A DNA stretch of 22,675 nt from a virus. A program made the position numbers and the translations under genes. Under the pieces are notes generated by a model that did no database searches, was not told where the DNA came from, and saw only the letters and a list, made by a program, of their open reading frames with translations. Shown here in pieces: positions 2,043 through 20,504 of this stretch. Where the stretch lies: positions 1-22,675 of the IMG/VR virus record IMGVR_UViG_3300035698_012653; one strand, 5' to 3'. Positions within the stretch are counted from its first letter, which is position 1. The number at the start of each line of letters is the position of its first letter.

Positions 2043-3056
2043 TTAGACGATCCGAGCTTCAGTGTTGAGGAGAGCATCCGTCTCACGAATAGGAATGCCA
2101 CGATATGTCAGTACTTCAGCACCTTCAATTTCGCCTGGCTTAAGACGAGTGAAGTTATCAGAAGAACCAGCGTTTGATGCCAAAGCATCGAGTGCTTCAA
2201 GGACGTCACGGTTGCAATAAATTGCCTGACGACCAACACCTGCATCGCCACGGCGCATACGAGACTGAAGCTTGTAGTAAGCTTTACGCATGAAGTCGTA
2301 GAGAGCAACAGAGCCAGCGTCCATTAGGCTCACATCGACGTTTGCGATGCGAGAGTTATAACGCCAGTCTTTTACTGCACAACCCATGTGCCATGTGAAT
2401 TTCTCTTCTTCAACATAGTAAGGGTTGCTTGAACCGTCCAACACACGTTGGCGACCCATGTCTTCACGTTGAAGACCAGCTTGAGTTCCTTCAGGATAAA
2501 GGAGGTGAGTGAAGCGATCGCCCCAGGTAACAAACCAAATGGATGTGTTATCTGAGCCAGTGCCACCAGCATCAATGATCTGGTTGCCAGCGCCGTTACC
2601 CGCAAGGGCACCATAACGAGCAGACAAACCCTTGAACTTTTCAGGAGTGGTCGCTGTGTCGTGATAGAAAAGACCTGAACCCATTTCCTGGTTCATGGAC
2701 TCGATGAAGGACATAGCTTCGTTCAAACGAACTGCAGGCTTGTTCTTCGCCAGTTTCAAAAGACGTTCGTCAATCGTTGACAAACCTTCCAAGAAGCCAG
2801 TCGTATCGGTGACTTGCTGTGTGGTTGATTTAGATTGAGCGATACCTTTGTAAAGCTGACCCCAAGATACGGATGGGAGACCGGTACGAGTGGTATGCAA
2901 ATGCTCACCACCCTTGTTGCATTCCATTGCAACTGCATCATCCAGAATAGGGTTCATCTGTTTCAGCAATTCAATGATAGTAGCAATAGAACCGTTAGGA
3001 TCCTGTTGCTTGATTACGTCAATCATATCGACGTATGTCGCTCCGAGTGTAGCCAT
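2043..3056 (-). CDS. Major capsid protein (Bbp17-like)
   Basis: The 337-aa product begins MATLGATYVDMIDVIKQQDP. Notable blocks are TRTGLPSVSWGQLYKG near residue 57, SFIESMNQEMGSGLFYHD near 117, and a central IWFVTWGDRFTHLLYPEG block. These are typical of the major capsid family that in BPP-1 is Bbp17 and has a topologically permuted HK97-like fold. The context supports this call, with scaffold upstream and Bbp16-type cement protein downstream. There is no N-terminal delta domain, because the scaffold is a separate gene. The capsid identity is well supported; the exact fold is inferred from the family. Confidence 0.85.
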   Translation of the reverse strand: MATLGATYVDMIDVIKQQDPNGSIATIIELLKQMNPILDDAVAMECNKGGEHLHTTRTGLPSVSWGQLYKGIAQSKSTTQQVTDTTGFLEGLSTIDERLLKLAKNKPAVRLNEAMSFIESMNQEMGSGLFYHDTATTPEKFKGLSARYGALAGNGAGNQIIDAGGTGSDNTSIWFVTWGDRFTHLLYPEGTQAGLQREDMGRQRVLDGSSNPYYVEEEKFTWHMGCAVKDWRYNSRIANVDVSLMDAGSVALYDFMRKAYYKLQSRMRRGDAGVGRQAIYCNRDVLEALDALASNAGSSDNFTRLKPGEIEGAEVLTYRGIPIRETDALLNTEARIV

Positions 3057-12608: not shown

Positions 12609-12962
12609 ATGTCATTAGAAAATGAAGTTAAAGAATTGACTGCAGCTATTGCCGCCCTTACGAAAGTGTTTGTAGACGCAGCACCCACGGGCGTCGACGA
12701 TATTACTACTGAAGACAAACCTAAAGCAGCAAAAAAGTCCGCTAAAGTTAAGGTTAAAACTAAAGCTGAACTCAAGGCTGAAGCTGCAGAAGCAGAAGCA
12801 GAAGCAGAAGCAGAAGCAGAAGCAGAAGCAGAAGCAGAAGCAGTTGAAGAAGTTGAAGACGACGATCGTGATAAAACAGTTGATGCCCTTCGTGAGTTGG
12901 CAGCACTTAAGATCGGTGAGGGTATAGCACGTGGCGACATCAAAAAGATGATCAAAAATTAG
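12609..12962 (+). CDS. Acidic Ala-Glu repeat protein, C-terminus probably frameshifted
   Basis: The open frame codes for 117 aa. An N-terminal helix (MSLENEVKELTAAIAALTKV) is followed by a Lys-rich stretch (PKAAKKSAKVKVKTKAELKA), an Ala-Glu repeat coded by nine exact GCAGAA units (12786-12839), and a VDALRELAALKIGEGIARGD segment ending MIKN. The stop comes abruptly after five A's. The next 72 bases, in the -1 frame, code for a sensible continuation and end 2 bp before the next ATG. Related phage proteins, as I recall them, end with a similar Gly-x-x-x-x-x-Asp-Leu-Asp motif. The full product would be about 141 aa. The function is unknown; an accessory role in replication is possible from context. 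Confidence 0.65.
   Translation: MSLENEVKELTAAIAALTKVFVDAAPTGVDDITTEDKPKAAKKSAKVKVKTKAELKAEAAEAEAEAEAEAEAEAEAEAVEEVEDDDRDKTVDALRELAALKIGEGIARGDIKKMIKN
12786..12839 (+). repeat. Nine tandem GCAGAA hexamers
   Basis: Fifty-four bases consist of exact 6-bp units that encode alternating Ala-Glu. Gain or loss of units keeps the frame, so length variation among isolates is expected. Confidence 0.95.
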
Positions 12963-14217: not shown

Positions 14218-14311
14218 GTGAAAGGTTGAAGTCTTTTATTGAACGTGTCGAGCGCCTTGAGGAAGTGAAAGGTTGAAGTCTTTTATTGAACGTGTCGAGC
14301 GCCTTGAGGAA
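14218..14311 (+). repeat. Exact 47-bp tandem duplication inside gapR
   Basis: Bases 14218-14264 and 14265-14311 are identical. The unit is not a multiple of three, so it breaks the reading frame. Perfect identity means the duplication is recent or technical. Confidence 0.95.
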
Positions 14312-14485
14312 GAGAAAGGTGCATTGACCGCTGACATTCGTGAAGTTTACAGTGAAGCCAAAGGCACAGGGTTTGACGTAAAAGTTTTACGTGAGATCGT
14401 TAAACTTCGTAAACAAGACAGTAGCGACCGCACTGAGTTCGAAGAACTAGTCGCAGTCTACAAACGCGCTTTAGATATGGTATAA
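14273..14485 (+). CDS. Downstream gapR frame, possible TTG restart
   Basis: The downstream open frame codes for 70 aa (MKSFIERVERLEEEKGALTA onward) from TTG 14273. This codon overlaps the TGA that ends the upstream fragment (TTGA). A good ribosome site, GAGGAAG at 14259-14265, lies seven bases before it and is itself created by the first repeat copy. The product would keep nearly all of the GapR helical core and lack only the first ~19 residues. Translational restart could therefore rescue function. A start on TTG is unusual, and no product has been shown. Confidence 0.5.
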   Translation: MKSFIERVERLEEEKGALTADIREVYSEAKGTGFDVKVLREIVKLRKQDSSDRTEFEELVAVYKRALDMV

Positions 14486-15994: not shown

Positions 15995-16432
15995 ATGATG
16001 ATTAGGCAAAAAATTTTTCATAATAACTGGTCGACACCAAAATATTTTTATGATAAATTAAACTCTGAATTTGATTTTGACTTTGACCCTTGTCCCTTAC
16101 ATTTCGGGGAAATTATACCTGAGGTTGACGGTCTACTGCTCCCCTGGGGTAAAAGAAATTTTGTAAACCCGCCCTATGACAGAAAATCCAAGGAGGCTTT
16201 TGTTAAAAAGGCAATCGATGTTAAACACTCAGGCCGATTATGTGTTCTATTGTTGCCTGTTTCTACCAGCAGCAGTTTATTCCACGATTTTATTACGCCG
16301 AATTCTGACGACATTCGTTTTATCCGTGGTCGTATAAAATTTGAAGGTAAAAATAGTTATGGAAAACACGTAAAAAATACAGGGGCAGCACATGACAGCA
16401 TGGTCGTTGTCTTAGATGGTAGAGGCACATGA
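15995..16432 (+). CDS. Phage Dam-type DNA N6-adenine methyltransferase
   Basis: The 145-aa product begins MMIRQKIFHNNWSTPKYFYD; the second Met is an equally possible start. WSTP, then FDFDPCPLHFG (about residues 28-38) and NFVNPPYDRKSKEAFVKKA (NPPY near 56-59) are the motifs of the small phage DNA N6-adenine methyltransferase family. NPPY is the catalytic motif and contacts the target adenine. It may protect phage DNA from host restriction. The recognition site cannot be read from sequence. Its stop overlaps the polymerase start by four bases. Confidence 0.85.
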   Translation: MMIRQKIFHNNWSTPKYFYDKLNSEFDFDFDPCPLHFGEIIPEVDGLLLPWGKRNFVNPPYDRKSKEAFVKKAIDVKHSGRLCVLLLPVSTSSSLFHDFITPNSDDIRFIRGRIKFEGKNSYGKHVKNTGAAHDSMVVVLDGRGT

Positions 16433-18311: not shown

Positions 18312-18710
18312 ATGTTAAAAGATGTAATTTTGATGCACCATAAATTCGGAATAACTAATGCTGATATTAAGTTTTCAGCTGAAGAAAAAGAATTCCGTAT
18401 TCGTGCCATGCAAGAAGAGCTAGACGAGTACGAGGATGCAGAAAACTTTGCTGACGAGCTTGATGCTCTTGTTGACTTAATCGTCTTTACACTCGGCACT
18501 GTTGAGCGCTCAGATATGGCTCACGTTTTCCAGGAAGCTTTTGACCGTGTGATGCAGGCTAATATGCAGAAAAAAGTCGGCACAAATGAGAAGCGGGGTT
18601 CTTTTCAAATTGATCTTGTAAAACCTGAAGGTTGGTTAGCGCCAGATCTCCGTGACCTGGAGCATATGACAACTAGCGAAGCTCAACTAAAATTCGGCTT
18701 TGCGCTATGA
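18312..18710 (+). CDS. MazG-like nucleotide pyrophosphohydrolase
   Basis: The 132-aa product has RAMQEELDEYEDA (Glu 35, Glu 36, Glu 39) followed by DELDALVDLIVFTLG (Glu 49, Asp 55). The ExxE then ExxD layout on two helices is the magnesium-binding signature of the all-alpha NTP pyrophosphohydrolase (MazG/HisE) superfamily. Phage members cleave (d)NTPs or ppGpp-like signals to nucleotide monophosphates. In this operon it probably feeds monophosphates to the ThyA-family enzyme and dCMP deaminase. AGAAAGGAAC precedes the ATG. The substrate cannot be read from the sequence. Confidence 0.75.
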   Translation: MLKDVILMHHKFGITNADIKFSAEEKEFRIRAMQEELDEYEDAENFADELDALVDLIVFTLGTVERSDMAHVFQEAFDRVMQANMQKKVGTNEKRGSFQIDLVKPEGWLAPDLRDLEHMTTSEAQLKFGFAL

Positions 18711-19033
18711 GTAAGGTAGAAGAAACACTTGTGCAGCGACGTTCCAAATACGGACCAATTCAATATAACTCAGCGTTCACACAGTTAGTTATGCGTGAAA
18801 TCGCAGTGTCACCCGCAGCTGATGAATTGACAGACATACATATTGAATGTCTCCATATGATTATACACAAGATTTCCCGCATTATCGGTGGGGATCCATT
18901 CCATAGCGACAATATGCACGACATCGCGGGCTACGCAACTCTGTTAGAAAATTATGTACTAGGATCAACCGATCCTAGTACCGCTTTAACAAAACCTCCT
19001 AGCAAAAAGGGAAAAACCACCAATGCGAGCTGA
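18707..19033 (+). CDS. DUF6378 / MazG-related small protein
   Basis: The 108-aa product begins MSKVEETLVQRRSKYGPIQY. Its core reads CLHMIIHKISRIIGGDPFHS, then DNMHDIAGYATLLE. The pattern R-x-x-x-YG, then a helix ending K-(I/L)-x-R-I-x-x-GD and DxxxDIAGYAxL is typical of the DUF6378 family, related to MazG-type pyrophosphohydrolases. The C-terminus is a Lys/Ser/Thr-rich tail. Its start overlaps the MazG-like gene (ATGA) and its end overlaps the ThyA-family gene by 11 bp. A tight DNA hairpin (18957-18980) lies in its coding sequence. Confidence 0.65.
   Translation: MSKVEETLVQRRSKYGPIQYNSAFTQLVMREIAVSPAADELTDIHIECLHMIIHKISRIIGGDPFHSDNMHDIAGYATLLENYVLGSTDPSTALTKPPSKKGKTTNAS
18957..18980. repeat. 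Perfect 10-bp inverted repeat inside DUF6378 gene
   Basis: TACTAGGATC at 18957-18966 is mirrored by GATCCTAGTA at 18971-18980 around a 4-nt loop (AACC). It lies shortly before the overlap with the ThyA-family start, and could shape translation or decay there. Confidence 0.7.
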
Positions 19034-19799
19034 ACTGAAGTATTCTGAAATACTGCGTACAGTGTTGTCAGGTCACAAAAATACGTCTCGAAACGGCGAC
19101 ACTAGATTTATCAGTGGAGCGCAGTTAAAATTTGACTGCGTTACTATGCCAATCTTGACACGCCGTAAAATGTACTATAAAGGGGTGCTCGGCGAATTGG
19201 CAGCGTTCTTTCAAGGGCCAAAAACACTAGAGGATTTCACAAGTCGAGGGTGCAACTACTGGAAGGACTGGGCTGCTGAAGACGGCACCATCAACGTTGA
19301 CTACGGCAATAAGTGGATAAACTTTAACGGCAAAAATCAAGTCGCACAGGTTTTACACGATTTAGAAGTCAACCCTCAGTCAAGACGCATGTTGATCAGC
19401 GGTTGGGATCCTGCAAACATTGAAAATCTATCTTTACCTTGCTGCCATTACGCTTACCAGTTTATTGTTCGAGGTAGCTATTTAGATTTAATTTGGATCC
19501 AGCGAAGCGTTGATTGTGCGATCGGCTTACCTGCTGACATGCTGCTTGCCTTTTTCATGCTTACCACAATCGCAAACCAAAGTGGATACGCAGTTGGTGA
19601 AGTTACAATGCAGCTGGGTCATACGCATATTTATGAAAATCATGTGCCAGGGGTAATCGAATACTTAGGACGTCGTATGCATCCTTCGCCTAGTTTTACG
19701 CATGACGACAATTTATGTATCGATAACCTTAACAGTGGATCAATCCTTCCTATAAACTATATACACGAAGATCCAATTTCATTTGAATTGAATGTATAA
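19023..19799 (+). CDS. ThyA-family enzyme, probably dCMP hydroxymethylase or methylase
   Basis: The product is a 258-aa member of the thymidylate synthase superfamily. Conserved parts are GELAAF (Glu 58), Trp 80 and Trp 83, DYGNKW (93-98), PQSRRM (Arg 121, Arg 122), LSLPCCHYAYQF (catalytic Cys 141), IQRSVDCAIGLPADM and GHTHIYENH (His 202, Tyr 204). The distance from the catalytic Cys to Asp 172 is 31 residues, the same as Cys 146 to Asn 177 in E. coli ThyA, so Asp 172 replaces the Asn that selects dUMP. T4 dCMP hydroxymethylase has Asp at this point, and the corresponding Asn-to-Asp mutant of thymidylate synthase favours dCMP. I infer a dCMP-directed enzyme. Its gene stop is adjacent to the deaminase start (TAATG). 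Confidence 0.75.
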   Translation: MRAELKYSEILRTVLSGHKNTSRNGDTRFISGAQLKFDCVTMPILTRRKMYYKGVLGELAAFFQGPKTLEDFTSRGCNYWKDWAAEDGTINVDYGNKWINFNGKNQVAQVLHDLEVNPQSRRMLISGWDPANIENLSLPCCHYAYQFIVRGSYLDLIWIQRSVDCAIGLPADMLLAFFMLTTIANQSGYAVGEVTMQLGHTHIYENHVPGVIEYLGRRMHPSPSFTHDDNLCIDNLNSGSILPINYIHEDPISFELNV

Positions 19800-20233
19800 T
19801 GGCACGTGAAGCTCGCTACAAATATATGCTGAAGCTTGCTGAACTTGTATCGACGAGGGCCACTTGCCCTCGTCGATCAGTGGGTTGCGTAATCACAAAC
19901 AAGTTTGGCCATATAAAAGCAACAGGGTATAATGGGGTTCCTAGGGGTTTTCCACACTGTACTGATACACCCTGTGGTGGTGAGACGGAAAATAGCGACG
20001 ACGGTTACGATGCTTGCATGGCAACGCACGCTGAGCAGAATGCTTTGTTACAGTGCGATGACGTTCAAGATATTCACACAATTTACCTTACAACAACACC
20101 TTGTATCAGTTGCGCAAAACTTATTGCCAATACTAGTTGTGAATTTATTTTTGTCGGAACGCCACATCGTAAACAAGGGTCAGTTACTTTTTTAGAAAGC
20201 TGTGGAATAAAGGTGCGTAATGCGGGAGAGTAA
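19799..20233 (+). CDS. Deoxycytidylate (dCMP) deaminase
   Basis: The 144-aa product has the zinc deaminase motifs THAEQNALLQ (His 77, Glu 79) and TTPCISCAKL (Cys 102, Cys 105). An N-terminal TCPRRSVGCVI and TGYNGVPRGFPHC are typical of dCMP deaminases, as are the extra cysteines (Cys 54, 59, 73). It converts dCMP to dUMP for dTMP synthesis and is often regulated by dCTP and dTTP. The gene lies between the ThyA-family gene (overlap by one base, TAATG) and VRR-NUC. Near its start a 12-bp perfect hairpin (19849-19877) is built into the coding sequence. Confidence 0.9.
   Translation: MAREARYKYMLKLAELVSTRATCPRRSVGCVITNKFGHIKATGYNGVPRGFPHCTDTPCGGETENSDDGYDACMATHAEQNALLQCDDVQDIHTIYLTTTPCISCAKLIANTSCEFIFVGTPHRKQGSVTFLESCGIKVRNAGE
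19849..19877. repeat. Perfect 12-bp inverted repeat inside dCMP deaminase gene
   Basis: The arms 19849-19860 and 19866-19877 are exact complements (ATCGACGAGGGC / GCCCTCGTCGAT) around a 5-nt loop. It begins about 50 bases after the start codon. The stem is GC-rich, so a stable RNA hairpin is expected within the early coding sequence. Confidence 0.8.
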
Positions 20234-20504
20234 AATTGAAACTGAAACTTGTGACTATGCTAAAAATTTAGGTTGGCTATGTTACAAGTTCAGCTCCCCT
20301 GGTAATCGATCAGTTCCTGATCGAATTTTTATACGTGACAAAATTTTATTTTTTATTGAATTTAAAGCAGCGGACAAACAGCTTACAAAACTTCAAGCCC
20401 ACACAGCTCGAAAAATATCAAGCGAAGGGTTTGAAATTTATGTGATTGATAATCTTAAAGCTGGCATCGCGCTCTTTGACAGGATGGAACAATATGTTAG
20501 TTAG
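20220..20504 (+). CDS. VRR-NUC nuclease
   Basis: The 94-aa product begins MRESKIETETCDYAKNLGWL, followed by CYKFSSPGNRSVPDRIFI (Asp 34), ILFFIEFKAADKQLT (Glu 47, Lys 49) and LQAHTARK (Gln 60). This is the stand-alone VRR-NUC form of the PD-(D/E)XK nuclease fold. Such phage proteins cut branched DNA and act with the SNF2 helicase next door. The gene overlaps the deaminase end by 14 bp and the helicase start by 11 bp. All catalytic positions are present. Confidence 0.9.
   Translation: MRESKIETETCDYAKNLGWLCYKFSSPGNRSVPDRIFIRDKILFFIEFKAADKQLTKLQAHTARKISSEGFEIYVIDNLKAGIALFDRMEQYVS

Follow-up and report, generated by a model that had tools for sequence, protein, structure and literature searches.

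A ThyA-family protein with aspartate at the dUMP-selecting position, a putative phage dCMP methylase

In the window analysed here, a complete IMG/VR record of 22,675 bases that is a fragment of a phage genome, the open reading frame (ORF) at 19023-19799 on balance probably encodes a dCMP methylase, which would feed 5-methyl-dCMP into the phage DNA as 5-methylcytosine. The protein carries Asp at the position of the dUMP-selecting Asn of thymidylate synthases, lacks the residues of hydroxymethylases, retains an intact tail, belongs to a clade of phage proteins and is encoded in a cassette with two MazG-like proteins and a dCMP deaminase; dCMP as substrate, 5-methyl-dCMP as product and modified phage DNA are what these features would predict. 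The enzyme probably works like the dCMP methylase of phage Xp12 while lying outside its clade, and not as a T4-type hydroxymethylase; judged by its residues, it is the natural counterpart of the engineered Asn-to-Asp synthases. Very few phages are known to make genome-wide 5-methylcytosine before replication, Xp12 being the usual example. Methylated cytosine may extend through the whole DNA of this large phage family, most of which is mislabelled. If the clade makes it through a separate ThyA-fold lineage, aquatic and marine systems may commonly harbour cytosine-methylated phage genomes; the annotation thymidylate synthase would then hide them, and surveys based on restriction or deamination could misread them.

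The features of the window concerned are the following.

18312-18710, + strand: MazG1, a MazG-like all-alpha nucleotide pyrophosphohydrolase (PF01503 3.5e-3, below the curated cut-off; phrog_671 4e-17).
18707-19033, + strand: MazG2, a second MazG-like/DUF6378 protein (PF19905 2.4e-6), whose start overlaps the stop of MazG1.
19023-19799, + strand: ThyA-family enzyme with Asp172, a predicted dCMP methylase (PF00303 4e-56, residue classes, clade and AF2 model).
19440-19448, + strand: Cys140-Cys141-His142, the catalytic Cys141 and the family-specific Cys before it, where canonical synthases have Pro (alignment).
19536-19538, + strand: codon GAC of Asp172, aligned with Asn177 of E. coli and Asp179 of T4 gp42 (alignment).
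19620-19622, + strand: codon CAT of His200, which takes the place of Asp205 in GDxHxY; found in no other clade member and fixed in the Xp12-type enzymes sampled.
19799-20233, + strand: dCMP deaminase (PF00383 1.4e-17; phrog_174 6.9e-39).

The ORF at 19023-19799 begins with ATG and encodes a complete ThyA homologue of 258 amino acids, which the PF00303 profile matched end to end; solved thymidylate synthases were also matched, the best at 6e-37. Residues conserved in the window protein (E. coli numbering) were E58, W80, Y94, R126, R127, C146, H147, R166, S167, D169, H207 and Y209, and the fold together with the catalytic set E58, Y94, C146, R166, D169, H207 and Y209 places the protein in PF00303. 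An AF2 model built from 51 sequences (pLDDT 96.9, pTM 0.94) aligned from residue 2 or 4 to residue 258 with closed ternary complexes of thymidylate synthase (Z about 35, rmsd 1.4). A model from the single sequence was discarded (pLDDT 34). As the original prediction had stated, Asp stands in place of the dUMP-selecting Asn: MAFFT alignments with ThyA, T4 gp42 and the relatives set Asp172 on N177 without a gap, so that the Asn177 marking canonical synthases is replaced. The spacing of 31 residues between Cys141 (codon at 19443-19445) and Asp172, given there as the same as in E. coli ThyA, was indeed that between C146 and N177. The altered motif GHTHIY, to which it had also drawn attention, is real, His200 occupying the D205 position, but was rejected as a functional marker of the clade because it was found in the window protein alone; the other members have Asp, rarely Asn, at this position. 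His205 was present in 10 of the 10 Xp12-type enzymes sampled.

Relatives were collected from IMG/VR, where a single-protein search gave 28 loci and a profile search 205 confirmed relatives, 80 of which were fetched. No relatives of the window at the DNA level were found in the phage collection. When 229 distinct ThyA-like proteins, including phage reference sequences, were compared, they could be sorted by residues into four classes. The class of the window protein (81 distinct sequences, the members being about 40-50% identical to the window protein) has Cys145-Cys146 and Leu143, and nearly all members also have His147, W83 and the tail; its signature reads GCNYW...VDYG...LPCCH...GLPSD. Asp177 was present in 79 of these 81, indicating that Asp172 is not a chance substitution. 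The canonical class (78) has Asn177, Leu143, His147 and nearly always Pro145. The T4-type class (59) is distinguished by Asp177, Asp143, Thr147, mostly Val83 and a short or absent tail, and the Xp12-type class (10), in which DLP4 ATS92206.1 and PaMx28 ALH23652.1 stood in for Xp12 itself, by Asp177, Pro147, His205 and the presence of the tail. In an unrooted maximum-likelihood tree computed without column 177, the window class formed one clade (SH-aLRT 99) beside the canonical synthases, and the T4-type clade (100) and the Xp12-type clade (100) both excluded the window protein. The Xp12-type enzymes, which are the ThyA homologues of Bosavirus and Pamexvirus, share Asp177, the lack of Asp at -3, the tail and the adjoining MazG and dCMP deaminase genes with the window clade, and His at 205 with the window protein only. 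They differ in their separate clade, in Asn at -3, Pro147, a long insertion between W80 and Y94 and a DHFR gene nearby, whereas Cys145 and His147 are features of the window clade. A table of four characters (177, -3, 147 and the tail) would allow simple sorting of phage ThyA homologues into makers of dTMP, methyl-dCMP and hydroxymethyl-dCMP.

Clade members are labelled thymidylate synthase in GenBank in Dickeya phage Amaethon, Edwardsiella KF-1, Vibrio VPMS1, Pseudoalteromonas PH1 and Pelagibacter Kolga. When 84,980 species of bacteria and archaea were scanned, each represented by one genome, relatives turned up on only two contigs, both from metagenome-assembled Gracilibacteria. Asp93 (VDYG, beside the catalytic Tyr94; 19299-19301) and Cys140 (CCH; 19440-19442) were invariant in the 21-sequence alignment A1; canonical synthases have Val and Pro, respectively, at these positions. 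In a sub-branch formed by L027:9756-10454 and L028:9992-10696, His147 is replaced by Trp and the C-terminal region is shorter, although both proteins still end with the same KFELK motif. Two proteins that lie inside the clade in the unrooted tree, L231:6001-6816 and L287:5962-6789, carry Asn177, probably as reversions to dUMP use, and neither record contained a PF00383 deaminase.

In thymidylate synthase, Asn177 holds uracil, and Asp at this position protonates and holds cytosine (PMC6400193; MilA paper PMC5175136). Laboratory Asn-to-Asp mutants become dCMP methylases and prefer dCMP (Liu & Santi 1992; Hardy & Nalivaika 1992, as cited in PMC8670742). The engineered E. coli N177D and L. casei N229D synthases share with the window protein Asp177 in a synthase-type active site, the tail, Leu143 and His147; they are laboratory mutants, whereas the window protein is a member of a conserved, naturally occurring clade and has Cys145 and Asp93 in addition. 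Its R126, R127 and S167 are retained, which is the deoxyribose-preferring pattern; MilA, which prefers CMP, has Lys/Ala. Because Asp177 is combined with these deoxyribose-type residues, the substrate is very likely dCMP. The earlier suggestion that Asp points to dCMP preference is thus strengthened by the mutants at the same site and by the conservation of Asp in the clade.

The two MazG-type proteins upstream and the adjacent dCMP deaminase, which had been named beforehand, were confirmed by matches to PF01503 (below the cut-off) and phrog_671, to DUF6378 and to PF00383. In the series MazG1, MazG2, ThyA, dCMP deaminase and the following ORF (20220-20504), the end of each gene overlaps the start of its successor, the deaminase start overlapping the ThyA stop (TAATG), so that the five probably form one translational unit. 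MazG1 probably converts dCTP/dUTP to dNMP, and it matched the MazG adjoining the Xp12-type synthase of phage DLP4 at about 1e-12. The HAE and PCxxC zinc motifs of the deaminase are intact. A MazG gene was found within 2 kb at 57 of 78 family genes and 10 of 10 Xp12-type genes, compared with 2 of 77 canonical and 12 of 59 T4-type genes, and a deaminase gene at 48/78, 10/10, 4/77 and 20/59, respectively (flanks of 2 kb for the canonical and T4 counts). A MazG2-like gene lay within 2 kb of 18 of the 78 family genes. The proposal that the order MazG, MazG, ThyA, deaminase fits a cytosine-modifying phage is in agreement with the same neighbours in all ten Xp12-type loci and with the MetaGPA domains.

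The same deaminase could instead serve a thymidylate route in which methylation comes first: 5-methyl-dCMP would be mainly deaminated to dTMP, replacing the order dCMP to dUMP to dTMP, and the DNA would be unmodified. Some dCMP deaminases accept 5-methyl-dCMP. The translational overlap in the window, the frequency of a deaminase near the relatives (48/78) and the presence of one ThyA each, with no second ThyA and no ThyX, in 29 records are consistent with such a route. It is nevertheless unlikely, since the records of VPMS1, Kolga and several IMG/VR relatives carry the enzyme and lack a PF00383 deaminase, and since Xp12-type phages have the same deaminase, yet Xp12 contains 5-methylcytosine in place of all cytosine (PMC9206674, PMC7653180). 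With no PF00383 deaminase, ThyX or second ThyA in their records, the enzyme of VPMS1 and Kolga, at least, does not belong to a phage-encoded dTMP route of this kind. A rather unlikely extension of the preferred dCMP methylase reading would combine both outcomes: the clade would be a further, previously unrecognised dCMP methylase lineage that is found on over 200 phage contigs, a Pelagibacter phage among them, and annotated as thymidylate synthase, and its deaminase-bearing members would also make dTMP by way of dCMP, 5-methyl-dCMP and dTMP. If true, a single enzyme would supply both 5-methylcytosine and thymine. In KF-1, Amaethon and PH1 (L032:17611-18216, L031:19048-19644 and L033:13348-14094), the dCMP deaminase is fused to an N-terminal PF18909 dATP/dGTP diphosphohydrolase domain.

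The nature of the product was approached through the hydroxymethylase signature, which consists of Asp at -3 from the catalytic Cys, Ser at -2 from Tyr94 and loss of the C-terminal tail; T4 gp42 D145N yields no 5hm-dCMP (PMC6400193). Leu138 is found in the window protein at -3 from Cys141, where hydroxymethylases carry Asp, and Leu occupied this position in 81 of 81 family members. Position 92 is Val in the window protein and Val, Leu or Ile in the family, with no Ser. The folate-closing tail is intact, extending 34 residues past E. coli position 230 and ending ISFELNV, the AF2 model aligned with the closed synthase complexes through the last residue, 258, and W83 is retained. SPO1 gp29, a dUMP hydroxymethylase that served as an independent check, has Asp at -3 and no synthase-type tail. 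T4 gp42 shares Asp177, the PF00303 fold, the Cys, Tyr94 and Glu58 with the window protein and differs from it in Asp at -3, Ser92, Thr147, Val83, the absence of the C-terminal tail, its own clade (100) and a beta-glucosyltransferase neighbour. Among the marks of hydroxymethylases, the window protein therefore has Asp177 but neither Asp/Glu at -3 nor Ser/Thr at 92, nor tail loss, nor grouping with T4; like the Xp12-type enzymes, it has Asp177 without the hydroxymethylase Asp, and the tail is present.

Reductive methylation converts tetrahydrofolate to dihydrofolate and hydroxymethylation does not, so that methylation needs DHFR. A DHFR gene was located within 50 nt of the gene at 12 of 79 loci of the D177 family (4 of the 12 being weak matches) versus 0 of 59 T4-type loci, and within 2 kb at 8 of 10 Xp12-type loci; most D177 relatives have no adjacent DHFR. 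The genes of L229 run MazG1-MazG2-DHFR-ThyA, as in the window except for the additional DHFR. In L015, ThyA and DHFR overlap at the stop of the former and the start of the latter, and a T4 gp1-type DNMK kinase lies 1.6 kb upstream. Neither DHFR nor kinase was found in the 22.7-kb window, a genome fragment. The annotation 'bifunctional DHFR-TS' of MW202744 was not accepted, as no DHFR or TS domain was detected there with Pfam.

Given dCMP as the substrate, methylation is likely. A T4-like dCMP hydroxymethylase, which would add water to the methylene intermediate and lead to DNA with hydroxymethylcytosine or a derivative, is decidedly improbable and was ruled out as the main reading by the signature residues, the tail and the tree. 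Asp177 in common with T4 gp42, the annotation 'pyrimidine hmase' on one relative and the lack of DHFR beside most family genes argue for it; the missing Asp/Glu at -3 and Ser92, the synthase-type tail with W83, the clade separate from T4-type enzymes and the occurrence of DNMK in 1 (L015) and of carbamoyltransferase in 0 of 29 records argue against it. Of the two products envisaged at the outset, hydroxymethyl- or methyl-dCMP, the methyl alternative is favoured by the retained tail and by the adjacent DHFR in relatives, and T4-type hydroxymethylation is disfavoured by the absent signature. For the same reason there is no need to expect a hydroxymethyl-dCMP kinase or glycosyltransferase elsewhere, as had been supposed; the glycosyltransferase queries used on the relatives were T4 beta-GT and Eleri GT (phmmer). 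An ordinary thymidylate synthase that tolerates Asp and still uses dUMP is very unlikely, for although the active site, tail and fold are synthase-like overall, the neighbouring deaminase produces dUMP and two clade members (L231, L287) have Asn177, Asp is kept in 79 of 81 distinct sequences at about 40-50% identity to the window protein and the published Asn-to-Asp mutants, as cited in PMC8670742, prefer dCMP.

In the proposed dCMP methylase pathway, the two MazG-like proteins would reduce dCTP and provide dCMP. Asp172, standing where synthases have the dUMP-selecting Asn, would allow cytosine to be protonated and held at N3, and methylene-tetrahydrofolate and dCMP would give 5-methyl-dCMP by thymidylate synthase chemistry, that is, attack of Cys at C6, methylene transfer, hydride transfer from the folate and release of dihydrofolate. 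A host kinase (a T4 gp1-like kinase in one relative) would phosphorylate the 5-methyl-dCMP, which would then enter phage DNA as 5-methylcytosine and, as in Xp12, shield that DNA from restriction. The deaminase next to ThyA would provide the host synthase with dUMP, and it may likewise deaminate part of the 5-methyl-dCMP to dTMP. No PF00145 cytosine-C5 DNA methylase was found in 27 records, so any 5-methylcytosine would arise at the nucleotide level.

HhaI should not cut fully methylated GCGC. DNA of VPMS1 was reported to give an HhaI band profile (PMC4870561), and this profile might reflect unmodified DNA. Complete digestion would be expected to yield mostly fragments below 2 kb, the largest one predicted in a 24.7-kb stretch being 1.8 kb, and the published profile is not a clear match to complete digestion either. 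That digest, described too briefly to be decisive, was all that was found in the literature on restriction resistance of clade phages, with nothing for KF-1 or EPP-1; an enzyme assay or a nucleoside or DNA analysis was not found for any clade member. AXL1, which is close to Xp12 and has the arrangement MazG-TS-deaminase-DHFR, resists most restriction enzymes (PMC9206674, PMC7653180). In MetaGPA (eLife 2021, PMC8670742), Asp177 synthases were linked to cytosine-modified phage contigs: PF00303 with Asp177, PF01503, PF00383 and PF14437 were experimentally associated with cytosine-modified phage DNA, and positions 147 and 177 were the most differential residues between modified and unmodified contigs. 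These environmental synthases, which lie on modified-cytosine phage contigs, share Asp177 and the PF01503 and PF00383 neighbours with the window clade. They differ from the unmodified synthases at 147 as well, whereas the window clade keeps the canonical His147 and may for this reason be atypical of the modified set. We judge the presence of 5-methylcytosine in the DNA of the window phage to be fairly probable.

Several other features were observed in the window. A GP7-family major capsid protein is encoded at 2043-3056 (- strand; PF20911 3e-128), and a phrog_332 head-tail adaptor is also present, together indicating a podovirus-like phage. The ORF at 12609-12962 (+ strand) encodes a predicted protein with a long Ala-Glu repeat, and that at 14273-14485 (+ strand) a phage GapR-like DNA-binding protein of 70 amino acids (PF10073 1e-30). 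A Dam-type N6-adenine methyltransferase (15995-16432, + strand; PF05869 7.5e-14) overlaps the start of a 605-amino-acid polymerase of the phrog_1252 family.
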